DNA of 39,639 nucleotides from a virus (IMGVR_UViG_3300046001_002700:1-39639), one strand, 5' to 3'. Shown: positions 1 to 39,639, counted from the stretch's first letter. The notes: generated by a model not told the origin, from the sequence alone. A program made the numbers and translations.

Positions 1-300
1 TGGAGTTGGGGGTTTAACAATCACGGTCAACTTGGTCTCAACGACACTGTTAGCCGTTCCAGCCCAGTACAAGTAGGTGCGTTGACTACGTGGTATCAAA
101 CCAGTTCTAGCAAGCAAAATTGTACCTCTCTTAAAACAGACGGCACTCTCTGGTCTTGGGGTCGTAATCAAACTGGTCAGCTTGGCCTTGGAAATATTAC
201 TTATTGCTCAAGCCCTGTTCAAGTTGGCTTGCTAACAACATGGAGTGCGATTGCAAGTTCAACTGCCCAAGGTAAGTCTATGAGCGCCATCAAAGGATAA
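1..300 (+). CDS. RCC1-repeat protein A, C-terminal end (5' end outside window)
   Basis: The reading frame is open from base 1 and ends at TAA 298-300. It encodes the last two RCC1-type blades, with the signatures LWSWG-like at the edge and again near residue 50, plus RSSPVQVG linkers, and ends in SAIKG. The stretch matches the end of the FnIII-RCC1 gene at 35681-37078 with about 16 base differences in 300. It is therefore the paralogue, or another allele, of that gene. RCC1 repeats fold as a seven-bladed propeller in the founding family. Here the protein is most likely an exposed virion or fibre component, which is inferred from context only. Confidence 0.85.
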   Translation, partial: WSWGFNNHGQLGLNDTVSRSSPVQVGALTTWYQTSSSKQNCTSLKTDGTLWSWGRNQTGQLGLGNITYCSSPVQVGLLTTWSAIASSTAQGKSMSAIKG

Positions 301-302
301 CC

Positions 303-335
303 ATGAACATCAACCAATCAGGCTTGAGGTGCTAA
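303..335 (+). other. 10-codon mini-ORF, possible deletion scar of a sulfotransferase gene
   Basis: ATG AAC ATC ... TGC TAA encodes MNINQSGLRC and ends directly before the next ATG (336). Its beginning, after 'aaaggataac', resembles the start of the sulfotransferase genes at 2034 and 38253, and its 'cttgagg' resembles the extreme 3' end of the sulfotransferase at about 3784-3790. A 10-residue product is unlikely to matter. The segment now supplies the GAGG ribosome binding site for the gene that follows. An identical copy lies at 37081-37113. Confidence 0.45.
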
Positions 336-905
336 ATGCCGTCGTATAGTGGAGAACTTCAGCCAACAAAAAAGTTCAATGCTTATATTCACGCTAGGCC
401 AGATGGAACGCCTTTTTATGTAGGCAAAGGGAATAGAAGTAGGGTTCATAGACTTAGCAAACGAAACCCACACCACACAAATATCGTTGCAAAGTATGGC
501 AGACAGAATATCTTGATTGGCAGTCTAGAATGCTCAACCGAAACAATAGCGTTTGAACTTGAGATAGGTATGATTAAATGCTTGCGTCGAATGGGTGTTG
601 AGTTAACAAACCGAACAAATGGCGGGGAAGGCTGCACTGGATTAGTAGTTTCTCCAGAAGCTCGTGCTAGGATTTCAACATTCTTAACGGGCCGCAAAGG
701 CACTCCTTGGAGTGATGAGCAAAGAGCAAAATTTAAAGCAGCAACAGTTGGAAGAAAAAGAACTCCAGAACAGCGTGCAAGAATAGGTGATGGTCACCGT
801 GGCAAAGTCGTTTCCGATGAAACCCGCGAAAAACTTAAAGCAGCAGCCTACGTATTTTGGGCCAAGCGCAAACAAAAGTTAGGAGAACGCGATGCCCTCG
901 TATAG
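336..905 (+). CDS. GIY-YIG homing endonuclease with NUMOD3 repeats
   Basis: This 189-residue protein carries a GIY-YIG nuclease core: AYI at 16-18 and PFYVGKG at 26-32, then an Arg/His-rich helix, a Glu-containing helix around residues 73-77, and Asn residues near 92-95. Residues 106-170 hold three to four short NUMOD3-type DNA-binding repeats (SPEARARIS, SDEQRAKF, TPEQRARIG, SDETREKL). This architecture is typical of mobile phage homing endonucleases. The first six residues, MPSYSG, are those of the RCC1-B protein. The gene has thus captured that gene's start codon and ribosome binding site. Its 3' end overlaps the rebuilt RCC1-B start by 14 bases, and its own last codons supply AGGAG for RCC1-B. 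The corresponding site at 37114 is uninterrupted. Confidence 0.9.
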   Translation: MPSYSGELQPTKKFNAYIHARPDGTPFYVGKGNRSRVHRLSKRNPHHTNIVAKYGRQNILIGSLECSTETIAFELEIGMIKCLRRMGVELTNRTNGGEGCTGLVVSPEARARISTFLTGRKGTPWSDEQRAKFKAATVGRKRTPEQRARIGDGHRGKVVSDETREKLKAAAYVFWAKRKQKLGERDALV

Positions 906-2031
906 CGGCGTTTGGACGCTACAAGCTCAGATGCAGGCCGAGGCTGCGGGTAATTGGCCGAAGCCACCTGTGCAGGGTGAGCTATATGCGTGGGGGTATG
1001 GTGGCAATGGCCGACTTGCCCTTAACGACACAGCAAACCGTTCCAGCCCCGTGCAGGTGGGTGCTTTAAACACATGGTCACAAATAGCAGGAGGAACATA
1101 TTCTTGTCTTGCAGTAAAAGTTGACGGAACTCTCTGGAGCTGGGGATATAACAGCTCTGGGCAACTTGGTCAAAACAATACAACAAACCGATCAAGCCCT
1201 GTGCAAGTGGGCGCACTAACAACGTGGTATCAGCCAAGTTCGAGTACAAGTAAAATCTCTGCCGCAGTTAAAACTGACGGCACGTTATGGAGCTGGGGCC
1301 TAAATACCGCTGGGGCGCTTGGTCTTGGGGATACAGTTAGCCGTTCCAGCCCTGTGCAAGTGGGAGCGTTGACTGCTTGGGCTACAGTTTCTGCTATTTC
1401 TTCTGGATGCGCCGCTATTAAAACAGATGGAACATTATGGGTGTGGGGTGGTAATAATTACGGTCAACTTGGCCAAAACAATACTACAAGTCAATCTAGC
1501 CCCGTTCAAGTGGGGTCTTTAACAACATGGTATAAAGTGTCCGGAGGTAATAGCTTTTTTGCTTCAATTAAAACGGACGGCTCTCTGTGGGCTTGGGGCC
1601 GCAACTACCACGGTCAACTTGGCCTCAACGACACTGCTAACCGATCAAGCCCTGTTCAAATTGGCTCATTAACAACATGGTCTAGCATTAATTGTAGCGG
1701 CCCTATTTGCACTGCAATTAAAACTGACGGCACGTTATGGAGCTGGGGGCGAAACAATGTTGGTCAGCTTGGTCTTGGAGACGTTGTTCTTCGTTCTAGC
1801 CCGGTTCAGATAGGCGCGTTAACGAGCTGGGCGAAAACAAATGTTGGAGGAAATCACTGCCTTGCCACTAAAACAGACGGTACGTTGTGGAGTTGGGGGG
1901 CTGGCGCAAATGGTAAACTTGGCCTTAACGACGTAGCCAACCGATCCAGCCCTGTTCAAGTGGGTTCGTCAACTACTTGGCAAGTAGTTGGTGCTGGCGG
2001 TTACTATTCCTCATTCGCCATCAAAGGATAA
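892..2031 (+). CDS. RCC1-repeat seven-bladed propeller protein B
   Basis: The 379-residue product begins with a short anchor (MPSYSGVWTLQAQM, then NWPKPP at about 23-28), followed by seven RCC1 units of about 51 residues. Each unit carries an LWSWG-type strand, a GQLGLND-type turn and RSSPVQVG. Seven units equals one closed RCC1 propeller. The start follows AGGAGAACGCG, which lies inside the endonuclease gene. Compared with the copy at 37114, the first nine codons differ almost only at third positions. The middle blades are closest to protein C (3800-5014), including the shared ATVSAIS and TTWYKVSGG blocks. A role as a receptor-binding or decorating virion protein is inferred. The bacterial host is not expected to use it as a Ran exchange factor, the eukaryotic RCC1 role. 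Confidence 0.88.
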   Translation: MPSYSGVWTLQAQMQAEAAGNWPKPPVQGELYAWGYGGNGRLALNDTANRSSPVQVGALNTWSQIAGGTYSCLAVKVDGTLWSWGYNSSGQLGQNNTTNRSSPVQVGALTTWYQPSSSTSKISAAVKTDGTLWSWGLNTAGALGLGDTVSRSSPVQVGALTAWATVSAISSGCAAIKTDGTLWVWGGNNYGQLGQNNTTSQSSPVQVGSLTTWYKVSGGNSFFASIKTDGSLWAWGRNYHGQLGLNDTANRSSPVQIGSLTTWSSINCSGPICTAIKTDGTLWSWGRNNVGQLGLGDVVLRSSPVQIGALTSWAKTNVGGNHCLATKTDGTLWSWGAGANGKLGLNDVANRSSPVQVGSSTTWQVVGAGGYYSSFAIKG

Positions 2032-2033
2032 CA

Positions 2034-3803
2034 ATGAACAAACACCTCCACTTCCTCTCAGGCGTACCGCGTTCCGGCTCAACGGTCTTGGCGGCTATCC
2101 TGAATCAGAACCCGATGACGCACGTATCCACCACCTCGGCTCTGGGTGCAGCTCTGGACGGTCTAGCTACTGCTTGGCATCGTGACAACCTTTTGGTCAA
2201 CAACGACCCTAATCGCAGCAAACTGGCGCACACCATGCGCGGAGTGATTGACGCTTTCTACGAAGACGTCCCTAAACCTGTAATCATCGACAAGGCGCGT
2301 AACTGGCCGATTCCCGTAATCATGCAGGCGATGGGCCAGGTGCTGGGTCACAAGCCCAAGATCATTGCCACAGTGCGTTCTATCCCTGACTGCATGGCGT
2401 CCTTTGTGCGGGTAGCCAAGCCTGAGAACCTCGACGACTTCCTCGTTAACAGCTCACTCACGAATCACTTGAAAGGCTCCTACCAAACCCTACAACAGGG
2501 CTACGCTTACGATGCTGAGTCGTTCCTGTTTGTGGAGTACGAAGACCTGCTGGCCGACCCTAAAGCTCAACTACAACGAATTCACGCATTCTTAGACCTG
2601 CCCGACTTTGACTACGACTACGCCAACATCGACGGCTCTACGGTCAAAGAGGATGACGAGAACCTGCACGGTTACTCAGGTCTGCACGACATTAAACCTG
2701 TTCTTGAGAAGCAGCACCAACAAAGCCCCAAGGACGTGCTCAAACACCACTACGCGCAGTTCTGTCAGCCTGAGTTCTGGTTGGATAGACCTCGCACTGT
2801 GCCGGATATCCACGACCTTGATCTGCAACTGGTGGCCTCAAGAATGGGCGACTTTGCAGAGGGCTGGAGACTGTGCCAGAAGCTGGAGAAGGACGAGCCT
2901 GATAACCACCGAGCTGCGTACAATCGTGGCTGGTATCTCTTACGTCAGGGCCAGATTCAGAAGGGCTATCAACTGCTGGATCGTGGTCGCATTGTGAACG
3001 TCTTTGGTAACGCCAAGCCTAACGTCCCGACTGTTGCGTGGGATGGCAAGAGCAAGGGCATTGTGATGCTGCACCTTGAAGGTGGCCTGGGAGATCAGAT
3101 ACACCAAGTCAGATACGCTAAGTCCATTGCTGATCGTGGCTGTAAAGTCATCGTGTCCTGCTCTGGCGCACTGGCGTCCTTGTTTGTGGACGTTGAGGGT
3201 GTCTCTGCGGTAATCCAGCACGAAGCGTCTTTCGGTATTTACCATGACTTCTACGTCCAAGGGATGAGTGCTGTTGTGCCTCTGGGGCTTGAATTAAGCG
3301 ATCTTAGTGGCAAGCCGTACATCACGAAGCCTAAGACCATCAAAGCCCGCAGGAAGCGCATAGGGCTGCGCTGGCAGGGTCAGTCAGCCTTTGAGCACGA
3401 CCACAACAAGAAGTTTCCGTATGAGCTGCTGTTCGATGCAGTCAAGGACGCTGATGCTGAGTTTATCTCCCTACAACGCGATGAGGGTGCCGATTCCTGC
3501 CCGTCTTGGGTGAAGCAGGTTCCTTTAGATTCATGGGAAGATACCCGTGCTGCGGCGGCATCGTGTGATCTGGTGATCTCTTCTTGTACTTCAGTGAGTC
3601 ACTTGGCTGCTGCGATGGGCGTGGAGACTTGGGTTGTGACTCCGGTGATGCCGTACTTTCTATACGCACTAGAGGGCGATACCTGTCCTTATTACGATAC
3701 AATGCGCCTGATGCGTCAGGAAGTATTCGGTGACTGGACTGCCAGCTTTGAGAAGATCAGAGAGCGTCTTGGTGAGAAACAAGCCTTGAGGAGAGTCAAG
3801 TGA
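2034..3803 (+). CDS. Sulfotransferase-TPR-glycosyltransferase fusion
   Basis: This 589-residue protein has three parts. Residues 1-255 are a PAPS-dependent sulfotransferase, with the 5'-phosphosulfate loop SGVPRSGST (9-17) and a 3'-phosphate site resembling VRSIPDC (114-120). Residues about 265-320 look like a TPR pair (RMGDFAEGW, AAYNRGWYLLRQGQ). Residues about 340-589 resemble a GT9/heptosyltransferase-type domain, with GGLGDQ at 350-355 and DLVISSCTSVSHLAAAMG at 512-529. The ATG at 2034 is preferred because it follows the RCC1-B stop and begins with the sulfotransferase core; the frame extends 19 codons further upstream. The stop overlaps the next GTG. The likely role is to glycosylate and sulfate a phage or host surface polymer. 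The acceptor is unknown. Confidence 0.85.
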   Translation: MNKHLHFLSGVPRSGSTVLAAILNQNPMTHVSTTSALGAALDGLATAWHRDNLLVNNDPNRSKLAHTMRGVIDAFYEDVPKPVIIDKARNWPIPVIMQAMGQVLGHKPKIIATVRSIPDCMASFVRVAKPENLDDFLVNSSLTNHLKGSYQTLQQGYAYDAESFLFVEYEDLLADPKAQLQRIHAFLDLPDFDYDYANIDGSTVKEDDENLHGYSGLHDIKPVLEKQHQQSPKDVLKHHYAQFCQPEFWLDRPRTVPDIHDLDLQLVASRMGDFAEGWRLCQKLEKDEPDNHRAAYNRGWYLLRQGQIQKGYQLLDRGRIVNVFGNAKPNVPTVAWDGKSKGIVMLHLEGGLGDQIHQVRYAKSIADRGCKVIVSCSGALASLFVDVEGVSAVIQHEASFGIYHDFYVQGMSAVVPLGLELSDLSGKPYITKPKTIKARRKRIGLRWQGQSAFEHDHNKKFPYELLFDAVKDADAEFISLQRDEGADSCPSWVKQVPLDSWEDTRAAAASCDLVISSCTSVSHLAAAMGVETWVVTPVMPYFLYALEGDTCPYYDTMRLMRQEVFGDWTASFEKIRERLGEKQALRRVK

Positions 3804-5014
3804 GTCAAAAGTATCCCGGCGGAATAATTAGTAAAACAGCTCCTGTCACTGTCGGCCCTGTCGATGGTGAGGGCGGCTCTGCGCCGGGTGTGTGGACTCT
3901 GACTCAGGCGTTGGAATTGAATAAGCAGAACCTGTGGCCGAAGCCGCCTATACAGGGCGAATTGTACAGTTGGGGTTATAACGGCTTTGGCCGACTTGCC
4001 CTTAACGACACAGCGGATCGTTCTAGCCCCGTGCAGGTCGGTGCGTTAACTGCTTGGTCAAAAATAGCAGGAGCAACGTATTCTTCTCTTGCGTTAAAAA
4101 CTGACGGCACCCTGTGGAGCTGGGGATATAATACTCACGGTCAACTCGGTCAAAACAATACAATAAGCCGTTCCAGTCCAGTGCAAATAGGCGCGCTAAC
4201 AACGTGGTATCAACCAAGTTCAGGTCAGAATCATCTTTCTGTCGCAGTTAAAACTGACGGCACCTTATGGAGTTGGGGTAGAAATATCAATGGTCAACTT
4301 GGCCTTAACGATACCGTTAGTCGTTCCAGCCCTGTACAAGTGGGTGCGTTGACTAGTTGGGCTACGGTTTCTGCTATTTCTACTGGATGCGCCGCTATTA
4401 AAACAGATGGAACATTATGGGTGTGGGGTGGTAATGGCTACGGTCAGCTTGGTCAAAACAATATTACGAGCCAATCAAGTCCCGTTCAAGTTGGAGCTTT
4501 AACAACGTGGTATAAAGTGTCAGGGGGTAGTGGCTTTTTTGCTTCAGTTAAAACAGATGGCTCTCTTTGGAGTTGGGGCCGTAATCATTTTGGTCAGCTT
4601 GGTCTTAACGACACCGCAAATCGTTCTAGCCCTGTACAAATTGGCGCGTTAACAACATGGGTTAATATTAGTTGTGGCGGCTCTACTTGCACTGCAATAA
4701 AAACTGACGGCACATTATGGGGATGGGGTAGAAATGCCAATGGTCAGCTTGGTCTTGGAGATACTACATACCGCATCAGCCCCGTACAGGTTGGCGCATT
4801 AACAAACTGGGCAAGAACAAATGTTGGGGGGAACCACTGCCTTGCCACTAAAACAGACGGCAGCTTGTGGAGTTGGGGGGCTGGCGCAAATGGCAAACTT
4901 GGCCTTAACGACGTAGCAAACCGTTCCAGCCCTGTGCAGGTTGGGGCGTTAACTACTTGGCAAGTGGTTGGTGCTGGCGGTTACTATTCCTCATTTGCTA
5001 TCAAAACACCTTAA
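3800..5014 (+). CDS. RCC1-repeat seven-bladed propeller protein C
   Basis: It starts at GTG 3800 in a GTGA overlap with the sulfotransferase stop, preceded by GAGGAGAG. The 404-residue product opens with a Pro/Gly-rich leader (YPGGIISKTAP, then APGVWTL and NLWPKPP). This resembles the N-terminal anchors of phage fibre-like proteins and parallels the shorter anchor of protein B. Seven RCC1 units follow. Blades 3 to 7 are nearly the same as in protein B, ending in GAGGYYSSFAIK in both. Genes B and C therefore form long direct repeats on each side of the sulfotransferase gene. It is probably a structural, surface-exposed protein, though no virion evidence is visible here. Confidence 0.88.
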   Translation: MSQKYPGGIISKTAPVTVGPVDGEGGSAPGVWTLTQALELNKQNLWPKPPIQGELYSWGYNGFGRLALNDTADRSSPVQVGALTAWSKIAGATYSSLALKTDGTLWSWGYNTHGQLGQNNTISRSSPVQIGALTTWYQPSSGQNHLSVAVKTDGTLWSWGRNINGQLGLNDTVSRSSPVQVGALTSWATVSAISTGCAAIKTDGTLWVWGGNGYGQLGQNNITSQSSPVQVGALTTWYKVSGGSGFFASVKTDGSLWSWGRNHFGQLGLNDTANRSSPVQIGALTTWVNISCGGSTCTAIKTDGTLWGWGRNANGQLGLGDTTYRISPVQVGALTNWARTNVGGNHCLATKTDGSLWSWGAGANGKLGLNDVANRSSPVQVGALTTWQVVGAGGYYSSFAIKTP

Positions 5015-5029
5015 ATCAGGAGATACACA

Positions 5030-5428
5030 ATGTTCTTTGTAAAAATAGAAAACAACGAAGTAACCCAGTGCTGGGACACTCAGCCCCCTAAAGGCGAGTC
5101 AGGCTGGAAGTCAGCCATCGAAGTACGCCCTGCGGTGACACCTAACCGTCAGCAGTACACCGGCCACAGCTTTGACATCACCAAAGACCCGGTTGAGATC
5201 GTCTGGGGTGTTCAAGACATCACTGCCGAAGACCGTAAAGGCGGGCTTCGCTCACAGGCTGCGGCTGAGTTCCAGCAGGTTGTACAGGAAGAGATGCGTA
5301 AAGAGGTCGATGAGTTCCCCACTACTCAGTACAACCCTGCTACTGTTGACGCTGCCCGTGTAGCCTTTGAAACCAAGGTCACTGCAATCAACGCAGCCAC
5401 TACGCACGACGAGCTTGATAAGCTGTGA
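5030..5428 (+). CDS. Small tail-fibre-associated protein, function unknown
   Basis: This 132-residue soluble protein has a clear ribosome binding site (AGGAGATACACA-ATG). It starts MFFVKIENNEVTQCW and has a charged helical C-terminal half from about residue 70. Short proteins of this shape, with an N-terminal 'value/expression' segment followed by helices, often follow fibre genes in tailed phages and can act in fibre assembly. That role is inferred from context. The stop overlaps the GTG of the next gene by four bases. Confidence 0.7.
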   Translation: MFFVKIENNEVTQCWDTQPPKGESGWKSAIEVRPAVTPNRQQYTGHSFDITKDPVEIVWGVQDITAEDRKGGLRSQAAAEFQQVVQEEMRKEVDEFPTTQYNPATVDAARVAFETKVTAINAATTHDELDKL

Positions 5429-6120
5429 GACTGAACTACTCGTATGACATGACGCCATCCAAAGCCTACATAATCCGTGTTGTGGGTAACGCTGCCTCTG
5501 AAGAGAAAGCCAAGCGGTGTGCAGTGTCATGCGAAAAAGTAGGCCAGCCCTACGAGTTCTGGGACGCCTATGATGGTTTAGCAGACGAGATCAAAGCACC
5601 TGCTCACCACAATGCGGTTATGGATTGTATCAAGGTCACAGATCACTACCTGACCCGTGGCGAAGTAGCGTGTGCGCTATCCCACATAAGCCTGTGGGCA
5701 AAGTGTGTTCTTGAAGACAAGCCTTTGGTGATCTTGGAGCATGACTCGTTGATGTTGCAGCCCTACACGCAACACGCTGTGTTCAACTCAATCTGCTATC
5801 TAGGCTCGCACGAGCAGGTCAAACTTAACTGGCAAGTGTCTGCTACGCCGCCACACGCAACGGAGGGTGAGAACTACCACTTCCTATGCCGTGCTCATGC
5901 GTATGCGATTGACCCGGCTGTCGCTAAGAACCTGTTGTCCTACGTTATCAAAATTGGCATCTGCACCTCCCTCGATATGCTGGTTCGTGCTGACCTGTTC
6001 CCCATTCACCAGATGGGTGTCTACGCTTATAATGTGTTTGAGAGCCGAGAAGAAACAACGATTAAGGGAAGGGCGTTAGAGGGCAGAGCCACTAAACGCA
6101 ACGATGGGCTGCTGGTATGA
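5425..6120 (+). CDS. Glycosyltransferase family 25-like protein
   Basis: The 231-residue product shows the GT25 (LPS-type galactosyl/glucosyltransferase) pattern. An early strand AYIIRVVGN (14-22) is followed by VACALSHISLW (81-91) and by the metal-binding strand VILEHD (102-107), where many relatives have EDD. GTG 5425 is in a GTGA overlap with the upstream stop; ATG 5449 (residue 9, MTPSKAY) is the alternative start. The stop overlaps the following ATG. Its position between the propeller genes and the APS-kinase-like gene suggests it decorates the same target as the sulfotransferase fusion. The sugar donor and acceptor are not predictable from this sequence. Confidence 0.82.
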   Translation: MRLNYSYDMTPSKAYIIRVVGNAASEEKAKRCAVSCEKVGQPYEFWDAYDGLADEIKAPAHHNAVMDCIKVTDHYLTRGEVACALSHISLWAKCVLEDKPLVILEHDSLMLQPYTQHAVFNSICYLGSHEQVKLNWQVSATPPHATEGENYHFLCRAHAYAIDPAVAKNLLSYVIKIGICTSLDMLVRADLFPIHQMGVYAYNVFESREETTIKGRALEGRATKRNDGLLV

Positions 6121-6527
6121 AGATTCTCGTGATGGGCCTACCCGGCAGCGGGAAAACAACCTTTGCTCGGTTCCTGGCTGAACAGTTTCGTTGTGTGCAT
6201 TTTAACGCTGATGACATTCGTGAGAACATCAACAAAGACTTAGGCTTTAGCCCTGAAGATCGGATTGAGCAGGCAAGGCGAATGGGGCATCTGTGCAACA
6301 TTGCTAGTCGCTGGGGGCAGAAGGTAATTGCGGACTTTGTGTGTCCGACCAAAGAGACTCGCCAAGCGTTTGCTCCAGACTTTGTAATCTGGATGAACAC
6401 AATCAAAGAAGGCAGGTTTGAAGACACCAATAAGCTGTTTGTACAACCGGATTACGACTATCGCATTGATAACTTTGCTATTCCCATGCTGTACCATGCC
6501 AACGAGATTCAAAAATTATGGAAATAA
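6117..6527 (+). CDS. APS-kinase-like P-loop protein (PAPS supply)
   Basis: This 136-residue P-loop kinase has Walker A GLPGSGKTT (7-15), FNADDIREN (29-37), RIEQARRMG (49-57) and ADFVCPTKETR (72-82). A late segment reads EGRFEDTNKLFV (98-109). The order and motifs fit the adenylylsulfate kinase (CysC) family, which phosphorylates APS to PAPS, but the protein is shorter than bacterial CysC (about 200 residues). PAPS is the donor for the sulfotransferase encoded at 2034 and 38253, which gives a coherent reason for its presence. Another small phage nucleotide or polynucleotide kinase remains possible. ATG 6117 overlaps the GT25 stop (ATGA). Confidence 0.72.
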   Translation: MKILVMGLPGSGKTTFARFLAEQFRCVHFNADDIRENINKDLGFSPEDRIEQARRMGHLCNIASRWGQKVIADFVCPTKETRQAFAPDFVIWMNTIKEGRFEDTNKLFVQPDYDYRIDNFAIPMLYHANEIQKLWK

Positions 6528-35286: not shown

Positions 35287-35670
35287 GTGGCCGCACCTAA
35301 TATTGTAAACGTCACAAACATTGTTGGTAACACCAGTACCAATTTAATCAGCTCAACGGCTGACCCGTTTGCGACTGCGCTGGCAAGTAACGCTGCCTCA
35401 AGTGGCAAGGTCTACAAGATCAACTCCATTGTGGCGGCTAACGTCGATGGCTCCTCTGCCTGCGACATCACGATCAAGATATTCTCTGCTGCGGCGCTGG
35501 GCGGTACGGGCACTGCAATTGCCTCGACGATCTCTGTCCCTGCTGACGCGACCTTGATTATCACTGACAAGACAACGAGCTTCTATCTGTTGGAAGACAA
35601 GTCTATTGGTGCTACGGCCAGCGCAGCGAATGATGTCGTTGTTACAGTATCGTGGGAAGAAATTACGTAA
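35287..35670 (+). CDS. Small beta-rich structural protein
   Basis: It starts at GTG 35287 after AGGAGACTACC. The 127-residue product is beta-rich and polar (AAPNIVNVTNIVGNTSTNL, SACDITIKIFSAAALGG, and VVVTVSWEEI at the end). It looks like a small virion or fibre-associated protein of aquatic phages. No enzyme motif is seen. Confidence 0.7.
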   Translation: MAAPNIVNVTNIVGNTSTNLISSTADPFATALASNAASSGKVYKINSIVAANVDGSSACDITIKIFSAAALGGTGTAIASTISVPADATLIITDKTTSFYLLEDKSIGATASAANDVVVTVSWEEIT

Positions 35671-35680
35671 GGAGTGCCCC

Positions 35681-37078
35681 ATGTCTTTACGCCGACCCAA
35701 TGGCTTTATCTCTGCGGGCTTTAATCCGCTGGAAGTCCCTAACGCGCCTACAATTGGTACGGCTACGAGTGCTGGGCCTACTGCTGTTTCAGTAACCTTT
35801 ACTGCGCCTTCTAACGTGGGCGGGTCTGCTATTACAGGGTATGTGGCTACTGCAAGAAAGACGTCAGACGGCACGACCATCAGCGGCACAGGCTCATCCT
35901 CTCCGGTTACTATTTCTGGCCTAACTGTTAGTGTTGCCTACACGGTGACTGTGGCAGCTGTTAACTTGTTTGGCCTTGGTCTATCAAGTGCGGCGAGTAA
36001 CTCGGTTACGCCGTTGGCGCAAGAGCTGTTTAATTGGGGATATAACAACAAAGGACAACTTGGCCTTAACGACACTGCCAATCGCTCTAGCCCAGTTCAG
36101 GTCGGAACATTAGGGGATTGGTCTCAAATATCTTCTGGCAACTACCACTGCACTGCCGTAAAAACAGACGGCACCCTGTGGAGTTGGGGGTATAACCTTA
36201 ACGGTCAGCTTGGCCTTAACGACACCGCTAACCGCAGCAGCCCTGTTCAAATAGGTGCGCTAACAGCATGGAGTCAAATTAGCGCCGGAGATTATTTTTC
36301 AATCGCTATAAAAACTAATGGTACTTTGTGGGGTTGGGGCAAAAATAATAACTATCAGCTTGGGCTTGGCGATGGCGTTGCTCGTTCCAGCCCAGTACAA
36401 GTTGGAGCCTTGGTAAATTGGTATAAGGTAGCGGCGGGTTCTACTTTTTGCGCGGCGATCAAGACAGACGGCACTTTATGGGCTTGGGGGAGTAGCGCAC
36501 AAGGTCAGCTTGGTCAAAACAACACTACTCCCAGTAATAGCCCTATTCAGGTTGGATCATTAACAAACTGGTCAAAAATAGCGGCTGGTAATAAAACGTG
36601 TGTTGCTGTTAAAACCGACGGCACATTGTGGAGCTGGGGATACAACTACAGTGGCCCACTTGGTCTTGGCGACACTAATAACCGCTCTAGTCCAGTTCAG
36701 GTAGGGGCGTTAACTACTTGGTCATCTGTTTCAGTTGGTTACGTAGTTTGTACTGCAATAAAAACTGACGGCACGCTATGGAGTTGGGGGTCTAACAATC
36801 ACGGTCAACTTGGTCTAAACGACACGGCAAACCGTTCCAGTCCAGTACAAGTAGGCGCACTGACTACGTGGCATCAAACCAGTTCTAGCAAGCAAAATTG
36901 TACCTCTCTTAAAACAGACGGCACTCTCTGGTCTTGGGGTCGTAATCAAACTGGTCAGCTTGGCCTTGGAAATATTACTTATCGCTCAAGCCCGGTTCAA
37001 GTTGGTTTGTTAACAACATGGAGTGCGATTGCAAGTTCAACTGCCCAAGGTAAGTCTATGAGCGCCATAAAAGGATAA
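35681..37078 (+). CDS. FnIII + seven-bladed RCC1 protein A'
   Basis: I start at ATG 35681, which follows AAGGAG; the frame extends 25 codons upstream inside the previous gene. The 465-residue product has a fibronectin type III domain at about residues 20-110 (APTIGTATSAG, VSVTFTAPSNVGGSAITGY, LTVSVAYTVTVAAVN). It then has seven RCC1 units, from ELFNWGYNNKGQLG to the LWSWGRNQTG blade. Ig-like and FnIII modules on virions often bind carbohydrate or cell surfaces. The end of this gene is the close relative of 1-300. Confidence 0.9.
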   Translation: MSLRRPNGFISAGFNPLEVPNAPTIGTATSAGPTAVSVTFTAPSNVGGSAITGYVATARKTSDGTTISGTGSSSPVTISGLTVSVAYTVTVAAVNLFGLGLSSAASNSVTPLAQELFNWGYNNKGQLGLNDTANRSSPVQVGTLGDWSQISSGNYHCTAVKTDGTLWSWGYNLNGQLGLNDTANRSSPVQIGALTAWSQISAGDYFSIAIKTNGTLWGWGKNNNYQLGLGDGVARSSPVQVGALVNWYKVAAGSTFCAAIKTDGTLWAWGSSAQGQLGQNNTTPSNSPIQVGSLTNWSKIAAGNKTCVAVKTDGTLWSWGYNYSGPLGLGDTNNRSSPVQVGALTTWSSVSVGYVVCTAIKTDGTLWSWGSNNHGQLGLNDTANRSSPVQVGALTTWHQTSSSKQNCTSLKTDGTLWSWGRNQTGQLGLGNITYRSSPVQVGLLTTWSAIASSTAQGKSMSAIKG

Positions 37079-37080
37079 CC

Positions 37081-37113
37081 ATGAACATCAACCAATCAGG
37101 CTTGAGGTGCTAA
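37081..37113 (+). other. 10-codon mini-ORF, second copy of the possible scar
   Basis: Identical to 303-335. It lies between RCC1 A' and B', ends directly before ATG 37114, and supplies GAGG for that start. Confidence 0.45.
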
Positions 37114-38250
37114 ATGCCGTCGTATAGTGGAGTATGGACGCTACAAGCTCAGATGCAGGCCGAGGCTGCGGGTAATTGGCCGAAGCCGCCTGTGGGTTTG
37201 TTTACATGGGGGAAAAACAATTTTGGTCAACTAGGCCATAACGACACAGTTTATCGTTCCAGCCCAGCTCAGGTAGGTGCGGTTAGCAAGTGGTCTAAAA
37301 TTGCAAGTGGAAGTCAATTTAGCCTCTCCATTAAAACCGATGGCACCTTGTGGAGCTGGGGATATAACAACAATCTTGGTGCGCTGGGTCTTGGCGACAA
37401 AGTTAACCGCTCAAGCCCAGTTCAAGTCGGAGCACTAACTGGTTGGTATCAGATTGCAGCAGGAGGCGCTTTTGGCCTCGCTATTAAAACAAATGGCACC
37501 CTGTGGAGTTGGGGGGATGGCAGAGCAGGCAGGCTTGGTCACAACGACACAGTCTATCGCTCCAGCCCAGTTCAAATAGGAGCGCTAACAACGTGGCATC
37601 AAATCGCTTCTGGGGATGAATCTAGCCTTGCTATTAAAACAGATGGCACCCTATGGAGTTGGGGGGCTAACAACTTCGGAAGGCTTGGTTTAAACGACAC
37701 CGCTGACCGTTCAAGCCCTGTACAAGTAGGGGCTTTAACAGCGTGGTCTCAAGTTGCGGTTGGACAGTCACACTGCCTCGTTGTTAAAACCGACGGCACG
37801 TTATGGACTTGGGGGTATAACGGCAATGGTCAACTCGGACTTAACGACACAACTAACCGATCCAGTCCAGTACAGGTAGGCGCGTTAACAACTTGGTATC
37901 AAATTTCTGCTGCAAATCAGCACAGTATTGCGGTTAAAACTGATGGCACTTTGTGGAGCTGGGGAACTAACAGTTATGGTCGGCTTGGCCTTAATGATAC
38001 CGCCAACCGATCAAGCCCTGTGCAAGTGGGAGCGTTAACAACTTGGTCTCAAATTGCGGGCGCGAGTAACTTTAGCCTCGCTATTAAAACCGACGGAACA
38101 TTCTGGGGTTGGGGTCGTAACAGTAACGGTCAACTTGGTCTTAACGACGTAGCCAACCGATCAAGCCCTGTTCAAGTTGGCTCACTAACTGCGTGGCTAA
38201 CCTTACCAAAAATGCCAATGAGTCAGTCACCCCTTGCCATCAAAGGATAA
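37114..38250 (+). CDS. RCC1-repeat seven-bladed propeller protein B' (uninterrupted site)
   Basis: The 378-residue product has the same anchor as protein B (MPSYSGVWTLQAQM, NWPKPP) and seven RCC1 units from LFTWGKNNFG to FWGWGRNSNG. Its blades differ strongly from those of B, and it ends SLTAWLTLPKMPMS. Shared anchor with different blades suggests recombination at the anchor boundary. Here no endonuclease interrupts the start region. The next gene begins two bases after the stop. Confidence 0.88.
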   Translation: MPSYSGVWTLQAQMQAEAAGNWPKPPVGLFTWGKNNFGQLGHNDTVYRSSPAQVGAVSKWSKIASGSQFSLSIKTDGTLWSWGYNNNLGALGLGDKVNRSSPVQVGALTGWYQIAAGGAFGLAIKTNGTLWSWGDGRAGRLGHNDTVYRSSPVQIGALTTWHQIASGDESSLAIKTDGTLWSWGANNFGRLGLNDTADRSSPVQVGALTAWSQVAVGQSHCLVVKTDGTLWTWGYNGNGQLGLNDTTNRSSPVQVGALTTWYQISAANQHSIAVKTDGTLWSWGTNSYGRLGLNDTANRSSPVQVGALTTWSQIAGASNFSLAIKTDGTFWGWGRNSNGQLGLNDVANRSSPVQVGSLTAWLTLPKMPMSQSPLAIKG

Positions 38251-38252
38251 CA

Positions 38253-39639
38253 ATGAACAAACACCTACACTTCCTCTCAGGCGTACCGCGTTCCGGCTCA
38301 ACAGTCTTGGCGGCTATCCTGAATCAGAACCCGATGACCCATGTGTCCACCACCTCGGCTCTGGGTGCAGCTCTGGACGGTCTGGCTACTGCTTGGCACC
38401 GTGACAACCTTCTGGTCAACAACGACCCTAATCGCAGCAAACTGGCGCACACCATGCGCGGAGTGATTGACGCTTTCTACGAAGACGTCCCTAAACCTGT
38501 AATCATCGACAAGGCGCGTAACTGGCCGATTCCCGTAATCATGCAGGCGATGGGTCAGGTGCTGGGCCACAAGCCCAAGATCATTGCCACAGTGCGTTCT
38601 ATCCCTGACTGCATGGCATCCTTTGTCCGGGTAGCCAAGCCTGAGAACCTCGATGACTTCCTTGTTAACAGCTCACTGACCAACCACCTGAAAGGCTCCT
38701 ACCAGACCCTACAACAGGGCTACGCCTACGATGCTGAGTCGTTCCTGTTTGTGGAGTACGAAGACCTGCTGGCCGACCCTAAAGCTCAGTTACAGCGCAT
38801 ACACGCATTCCTTGACCTGCCCGACTTTGACTACGACTACGCCAACATCGACGGCTCTACGGTCAAAGAGGACGACGAGAACCTGCACGGTTACTCAGGT
38901 CTGCACGACATCAAGCCTGTTCTTGAGAAGCAGCACCAACAAAGCCCTAAGGACGTACTCAAGCACCACTACGCGCAGTTCTGTCAGCCGGAGTTCTGGT
39001 TGGATAGACCGCGTACTGTGCCGGATATTCACGACCTCGATCTGCAACTGGTGGCCTCAAGAATGGGCGACTTTGCCGAGGGCTGGAGACTGTGCCAGAA
39101 GCTGGAGAAGGACGAGCCTGATAACCACCGAGCTGCGTACAACCGTGGCTGGTATCTCCTGAGGCAGGGCCAGATACAGAAGGGCTATCAACTGCTGGAC
39201 CGTGGCCGCATTGTGAACGTGTTTGGTAACGCCAAGCCTAACGTCCCAACCGTTGCGTGGGATGGCAAGTCTAAAGGCATTGTGATGCTGCACCTTGAAG
39301 GCGGTCTGGGCGATCAGATACACCAAGTAAGATACGCTAAGTCTATTGCAGAGCGTGGCTGTAAAGTCATCGTGTCCTGCTCTGGCGCACTGGCGTCCTT
39401 GTTTGTGGACGTTGAGGGTGTCTCTGCGGTTATCCAGCACGAAGCATCTTTCGGTATCTACCATGACTTCTACGTGCAGGGGATGAGTGCTGTTGTGCCT
39501 CTGGGCCTTGAACTGAGCGATCTGTCGGGCAAGCCGTACATCACGAAGCCTAAGACCATCAAAGCCCGCAGGAAGCGCATAGGGCTGCGCTGGCAGGGTC
39601 AGTCAGCCTTTGAGCACGACCACAACAAGAAGTTTCCGT
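38253..39639 (+). CDS. Sulfotransferase-TPR-glycosyltransferase fusion, second copy (3' end outside window)
   Basis: The frame is open from ATG 38253 to the right edge and covers residues 1-462 of the 589-residue copy at 2034. No insertion or deletion separates the copies. Base changes are frequent but nearly all silent; one I see is Asp to Glu in KSIAERG. The PAPS loop (SGVPRSGST), the VRSIPDC site, the TPR part and GGLGDQ are all intact. Confidence 0.88.
   Translation, partial: MNKHLHFLSGVPRSGSTVLAAILNQNPMTHVSTTSALGAALDGLATAWHRDNLLVNNDPNRSKLAHTMRGVIDAFYEDVPKPVIIDKARNWPIPVIMQAMGQVLGHKPKIIATVRSIPDCMASFVRVAKPENLDDFLVNSSLTNHLKGSYQTLQQGYAYDAESFLFVEYEDLLADPKAQLQRIHAFLDLPDFDYDYANIDGSTVKEDDENLHGYSGLHDIKPVLEKQHQQSPKDVLKHHYAQFCQPEFWLDRPRTVPDIHDLDLQLVASRMGDFAEGWRLCQKLEKDEPDNHRAAYNRGWYLLRQGQIQKGYQLLDRGRIVNVFGNAKPNVPTVAWDGKSKGIVMLHLEGGLGDQIHQVRYAKSIAERGCKVIVSCSGALASLFVDVEGVSAVIQHEASFGIYHDFYVQGMSAVVPLGLELSDLSGKPYITKPKTIKARRKRIGLRWQGQSAFEHDHNKKFP

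Follow-up and report, generated by a model that had tools for sequence, protein, structure and literature searches.

The question of the locus

What use could a phage have for an APS-kinase-like gene that lies close to a sulfotransferase gene and among genes of fibre-like proteins? An auxiliary gene, cysC, has been reported from aquatic phages and is read, in the passages retrieved from two papers, as part of assimilatory sulfate reduction (PMC10914622, PMC9529941). According to the same passages, some lake samples contain more viral than non-viral cysC transcripts (PMC10914622; PMC9529941), and 109-135 residues of a viral CysC were modelled as APS kinase (PMC9529941). Elsewhere phage cysC is listed as not validated (PMC12713726). 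Phage sulfotransferases have also been reported, with their function stated to be unclear (PMC10580990), and one paper notes viral contigs in which modification genes occur together with genes of sulfotransferases and glycosyltransferases (PMC10829341). In a library of open-access papers we found none that links a phage APS kinase to a phage sulfotransferase; within that library, the opinion of a sequence-only reading of this DNA that the combination had not been described is upheld.

Genes of the window

The window, i.e. the whole analysed stretch of 39,639 nucleotides, is a virus record of 39.6 kb; its structural genes lie on the plus strand and its replication-type genes on the minus strand. 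Open frames at 2034-3803, 5425-6120 and 6117-6527 were confirmed, as were RCC1 genes at 892-2031, 3800-5014, 35606-37078 and 37114-38250, all of them on the plus strand. The features relevant here are the following.

336-905, plus strand: homing-endonuclease-like gene (phrog_314 1.1e-15; NUMOD3), outside the module and missing in the right variant
892-2031, plus strand: RCC1-repeat fibre-like protein, left strain variant (PF00415 6.1e-73)
2034-3803, plus strand: sulfotransferase (residues 1 to about 250) fused to a TPR-like and GT-B-like half (about 260-589) (PF13469 1.5e-15)
3800-5014, plus strand: fibre-like RCC1-repeat protein whose N-terminus, MSQKYPGGIIS...GVWTL, is adaptor-like (PF00415 1.3e-73)
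5030-5428, plus strand: 132-aa protein, tail-fibre-chaperone-like by position only, kept between fibre genes and kinase
5425-6120, plus strand: GT25-like glycosyltransferase (PF01755 2.8e-15)
6117-6527, plus strand: APS-kinase-like P-loop kinase of 136 aa, hereafter KIN (PF01583 4.3e-15)
35606-37078, plus strand: RCC1-repeat protein upstream of the module (phrog_7220 1.3e-56), its end repeated at window 1-300
37114-38250, plus strand: RCC1-repeat protein, right strain variant of 892-2031 (PF00415 1.1e-81)
38253-39639, plus strand: second strain variant of the sulfotransferase gene 2034-3803, cut by the contig end

Curated Pfam cut-offs are exceeded by Sulfotransfer_3 (1.5e-15), Glyco_transf_25 (2.8e-15), APS_kinase (4.3e-15) and RCC1 (<1e-70). 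The first two scans recovered the 132-aa protein, which has no match in Pfam, in 86 loci. Coding frames overlap by 4 bases at the junctions 3800, 5425 and 6117, which suggests translational coupling. The gene order of the window was found again in dozens of other contigs, and the arrangement is therefore not a product of chance. As the sequence-only reading had it, the genes of the enzymes and of the RCC1 proteins share one late-strand run. Purifying selection acts on both enzymes, with dN/dS of 0.03 between two sulfotransferase variants and 0.05 between the kinase and a relative. Scans for promoters and terminators returned no more signals than shuffled sequence did. One scan of genome contigs for the host yielded three metagenome-assembled contigs from different phyla, which is too weak to name a host.

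One sulfotransferase gene in two strain variants

The sequence-only reading had counted the sulfotransferase fusion twice, at 2034 and again at 38253. We reject a second gene: window 1-3420 and 36779-39639 represent one locus in two variants that differ by about 5%. Identity is 95.5% between 1-354 and 36779-37132 and 92% between 1859-3420 and 38075-39639, and only the left variant has the insertion of the homing-endonuclease-like gene (336-905). The two copies of the sulfotransferase gene share 94.7% of their DNA (73 differences in 1389 aligned bases, nearly all synonymous, dN/dS 0.03). Moreover, three contigs (L002, L003 and L005) join the right-hand genes of the window to its left-hand genes with just one sulfotransferase between them. 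Given these bridging contigs and the overlap of the ends, the genome unit is therefore about 36.8 kb long and has one sulfotransferase gene.

The adjoining RCC1 variants (892-2031 and 37114-38250) are far more divergent than the sulfotransferase, at 61% amino acid identity. With the RCC1 gene at 3800 the left variant has 75% identity, and this sequence comparison is a hint of gene conversion. The homing-endonuclease-like protein begins with MPSYSG, the six residues with which the product of the adjacent RCC1 gene also begins.

Identity of the kinase

The gene at 6117 had been called APS-kinase-like, and both profile and fold agree. KIN scores 56.5 bits against PF01583, above the gathering score of 21.1, and 54.2 bits against the NCBIfam apsK equivalog TIGR00455, below the cut-off of 138.7. 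Because it stays below the apsK cut-off and is shorter than the cellular enzymes, we name it APS-kinase-like and not CysC. It shares fold, P-loop and APS-type motif with cellular CysC and PAPS synthetase, from which it differs by its 136 aa and its sub-threshold apsK score. Its predicted structure has a pLDDT of 94.7. The top 43 rows of a Foldseek search with this model are all APS-kinase or PAPS-synthase structures. VIA-align ranks APS kinases at Z 18.0, ahead of gluconate kinases, the second family, at 14.8. Superposition on the APS kinase fold covers 123-136 residues with Z of 17-18 and rmsd of about 2 A.

KIN aligns with human PAPSS1 across NK-LGFSPEDR...RR, and the APS-type motif NKDLGFSxEDR is retained in the kinase branch of the window. 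Among 47 relatives, Walker A, D32, R35, F44 and R49 are invariant; we take the latter four to be the Asp, Arg, Phe and Arg of the APS site. The position that we equate with the Asn of this site is Gln or His in most rows of the alignment. KIN probably makes PAPS for the sulfotransferase with which it is paired.

Sulfotransferase fusion and GT25-like protein

The gene at 2034 had been described as a sulfotransferase-TPR-GT fusion. Its sulfotransferase part stands, with 58.5 bits against PF13469 (gathering score 27), and both PAPS motifs (5' and 3') are present: G10, P12-T17 and A112-S116 with S123 are invariant in 33 relatives. The labels of the second half proved weak. TPR models remain below cut-off there, and so does the best glycosyltransferase match of the window protein, GT9 (E = 0.025); a sequence search of the PDB with this half gave no match. 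An attempt to place it in a curated glycosyltransferase family failed on these two results. The predicted structure of the fusion is of low confidence (pLDDT 66.5), and we use its fold matches lightly. The best solved folds for the first half are tyrosylprotein sulfotransferases, the second half matches SPY and TibC weakly, and together these matches mildly suggest modification of a protein or a protein-linked glycan, a fold not fixing the substrate.

The GT25-like assignment of the gene at 5425 was correct: it scores 57.2 bits against PF01755 (gathering score 24), covering only positions 18-101 of the 199 in the profile. This gene occurs in 34 loci and in only one branch of the family.

Co-occurrence of sulfotransferase and kinase

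In one scan, virus contigs with the fused protein were collected, and loci with at least 4.5 kb of sequence downstream were counted. The recurring order is RCC1, sulfotransferase fusion, RCC1, 132-aa protein, GT25 in some, and kinase. The kinase follows the fused sulfotransferase in 29/36 loci, or in 13 of the 20 groups left after clustering at 95% protein identity. About a fifth of the fused loci have no kinase, contigs of 35-37 kb among them; in those inspected, the 132-aa gene (or GT25) is directly followed by other genes.

In another set of contigs (L094-L104, L112), the gene directly before the kinase encodes a Sulfotransfer_3 protein that stands alone and measures about 273 aa (PF13469 6.2e-18). 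When it was used for a scan, the kinase lay 0-177 bases away in 75/75 loci with sequence beyond the gene, a count that stands for lasting adjacency and not for an unbiased frequency, the seed having been found via the kinase and its relatives being 85-100% identical. Of the longer records, 27 encode a protein related to the major capsid protein of the window; neither Sulfotransfer_3 nor the kinase was detected in any of them. Fisher's test of the fused loci against these 27 gives 1e-11 if shared descent is ignored. Chance co-location is rejected by the two locus counts and the capsid comparison, and the two counts clearly display the co-occurrence in related phages for which the sequence-only reading had asked.

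Sequences from fused and from stand-alone loci are mixed in the kinase tree, where well-supported branches force at least three label changes (fused group). It follows that kinase types moved between sulfotransferase loci and stayed beside a sulfotransferase. One record of 222 kb (L109:4459-11365) carries a tandem of two sulfotransferases and two kinases that belong to the two different types.

The pair is carried by uncultivated aquatic phages. In cultured phages it was not found; sulfotransferase and kinase hits fall into separate records, and the related sulfotransferases come without kinase. Cyanophages S-SKS1 and S-SRM01 and the OM43 phages (PMC10580990) have Sulfotransfer_3-type enzymes like the first half of the fusion, about 25-30% identical to it and lacking its second half, and their records returned no relative of the kinase. 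For the T4-like kinases, which form a more remote branch, no neighbouring gene is clearly a sulfotransferase.

Several further genes near kinases deserve mention. Eight T4-like contigs encode, about 4 kb upstream of the kinase, a protein with sulfotransferase-like motifs PRSGNN and NVRSP (L145:373-1101 and relatives) and no sulfotransferase match in Pfam. A Sulfotransfer_2-like gene below the Pfam cut-off lies upstream of the kinase in L110 and L111, its relatives of 25-33% identity being without kinase, and a 186-aa gene with no Pfam match precedes the kinase in L100, L105 and L106. The latter two genes serve us as leads only.

Association with fibre type

Two types of fibre module, RCC1 and Lcl_C, contain the pair. 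Nearly all stand-alone loci have fibre, chaperone-sized protein, sulfotransferase and kinase in that order; their fibre exceeds the Lcl_C cut-off of 34.9 in L104 (45.1 bits) and falls just below it in L094 (33.1). A similar N-terminal segment is found in the L104 Lcl_C fibre, the RCC1 protein at 3800 of the window and other fibre types. In a scan with the L094 fibre, both genes accompany 23 of the 39 loci that match its domain; among 39 further loci that match mostly only the N-terminus, one has both and 38 have neither. The sulfotransferase-kinase module follows fibre type. The link of the two genes is weaker in an RCC1 scan (10 loci with both, 21 with the sulfotransferase only, 2 with the kinase only, 23 with neither; Fisher 0.047, ignoring shared descent).

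In seven large-phage contigs (L376, L377, L383, L398, L403, L405, L411), RCC1 genes are interleaved with separate sulfotransferase and TPR-glycosyltransferase genes. Between the Lcl_C fibre and the sulfotransferase-kinase pair of L104 (1084-3571) there are a gene for a reverse transcriptase (RVT_1 1.4e-18) and a small gene of possibly accessory role, by sequence likely a diversity-generating retroelement.

A proposed model of phage sulfation and its alternatives

From these data we infer the substrate specificity of KIN and the chemistry, target and benefit of the module. We consider it fairly probable that the genes form a module for sulfation by the phage: KIN would provide PAPS for the sulfotransferase, whose target is most likely the fibres or a glycan on them. 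Host sulfate-activating enzymes would supply APS, which KIN would phosphorylate at the 3' position. The N-terminal half of the fusion would then transfer sulfate from PAPS to an acceptor, and the second half, together with GT25 where present, would probably add the sugar that carries it. The most likely acceptor is the RCC1 fibre protein or its glycan. Of the sulfation cassette envisaged earlier, the PAPS-making kinase and its sulfotransferase hold up well, on co-occurrence, kinase exchange, fold and motifs; the identity of the sulfated molecule, a preference of the kinase for APS and the exact role of GT25 are proposals.

The main alternative keeps the same chemistry and directs it at a host surface glycan (LPS, capsule or exopolysaccharide), as a late means of hiding the receptor. 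We regard this as possible, though on the unlikely side, and equally tentative is the benefit it would bring: progeny would not stick to the dying cell, or rivals would be kept out. GT25 is named for LPS biosynthesis, the faint GT9 match in the second half of the fusion is to heptosyltransferases, and a link to fibre type is equally expected if an enzyme modifies what the fibre binds. Against it, the genes sit in a structural run with 4-base overlaps, beside fibre and chaperone-like genes, and the best folds include protein-modifying enzymes (tyrosylprotein sulfotransferases and, weakly, SPY and TibC), as far as a fold, which does not fix the substrate, can tell.

Another alternative is that the kinase acts on some other derivative of a nucleotide, such as a precursor of NAD or a donor resembling CDP-phosphoramidate, and that the enzyme of sulfotransferase fold moves a group other than sulfate. 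Such a division of work has a cellular counterpart: in Cj1415-Cj1418 of C. jejuni, a CysC-like kinase supplies surface transferases with a nucleotide donor phosphorylated at the 3' position. That system is the phosphoramidate pathway (PMC11800397); likened to the window's module by description alone, it differs in its donor and in being a cellular capsule locus. A point in favour comes from relatives of KIN, many of which carry, other than in this window, a small fused HxGH domain whose closest matches are NMN adenylyltransferases (20/45 kinases of fused loci, 53/73 of stand-alone loci). This NMNAT-like domain takes the place that ATP sulfurylase has in PAPS synthetase, and PF01747, the ATP sulfurylase domain, is not among its matches. 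In cultured phages with such kinase-adenylyltransferase relatives (Casjensviridae, DLP6), the gene lies beside nucleotide-metabolism genes, in Casjensviridae NADAR and MazG. However, cellular APS kinases rank first by fold and by sequence, NKDLGFSxEDR is kept in the window's branch, and the paired enzyme keeps its PAPS motifs, so that we hold this explanation to be improbable.

The standard view of phage cysC in the passages retrieved (PMC10914622, PMC9529941), a classical auxiliary gene that provides PAPS for cysteine synthesis in infection and adjoins a sulfotransferase incidentally, is very improbable for this kinase, as the immediate adjacency in 75/75 loci (lasting, if not an unbiased frequency), the exchange of kinase types and the lack of both genes in capsid relatives all suggest that the PAPS is used by the sulfotransferase. 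The cysC genes of those passages are viral and APS-kinase-like as KIN is, with no subfamily identity implied; unlike KIN, they are not linked to a sulfotransferase or a fibre gene there.

Sulfation of fibres is our preferred reading, and it offers for this kinase family an alternative to the published assimilatory one. If it is true, a part of the viral genes classed under sulfur metabolism would be fibre or surface modification genes, the count of viral effects on sulfur cycling would change, and sulfation would join the known ways in which phages alter virions or host surfaces. We know of no phage with a sulfated fibre as virion modification. The sulfotransferase and kinase make up a two-gene unit that can be tested directly.

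Kinases fused to the HxGH domain

The role of the HxGH domain is only hinted at: it may be an APS-making partner, or have an NAD-type function of the kind that neighbouring genes in Stenotrophomonas phages bring to mind. In the former case, the kinase-HxGH protein would be a minimal two-domain PAPS synthase (ATP and sulfate to PAPS) and, with a neighbouring sulfotransferase sulfating the fibre, would complete a self-contained phage pathway, a speculation to which we give little probability. Two records with the kinase-HxGH fusion are rich in Sulfotransfer_2 matches, 11 in L126 (105,904 bases) and 4 in L135 (36,828 bases), and one frame of 657 aa in these records holds three of them.
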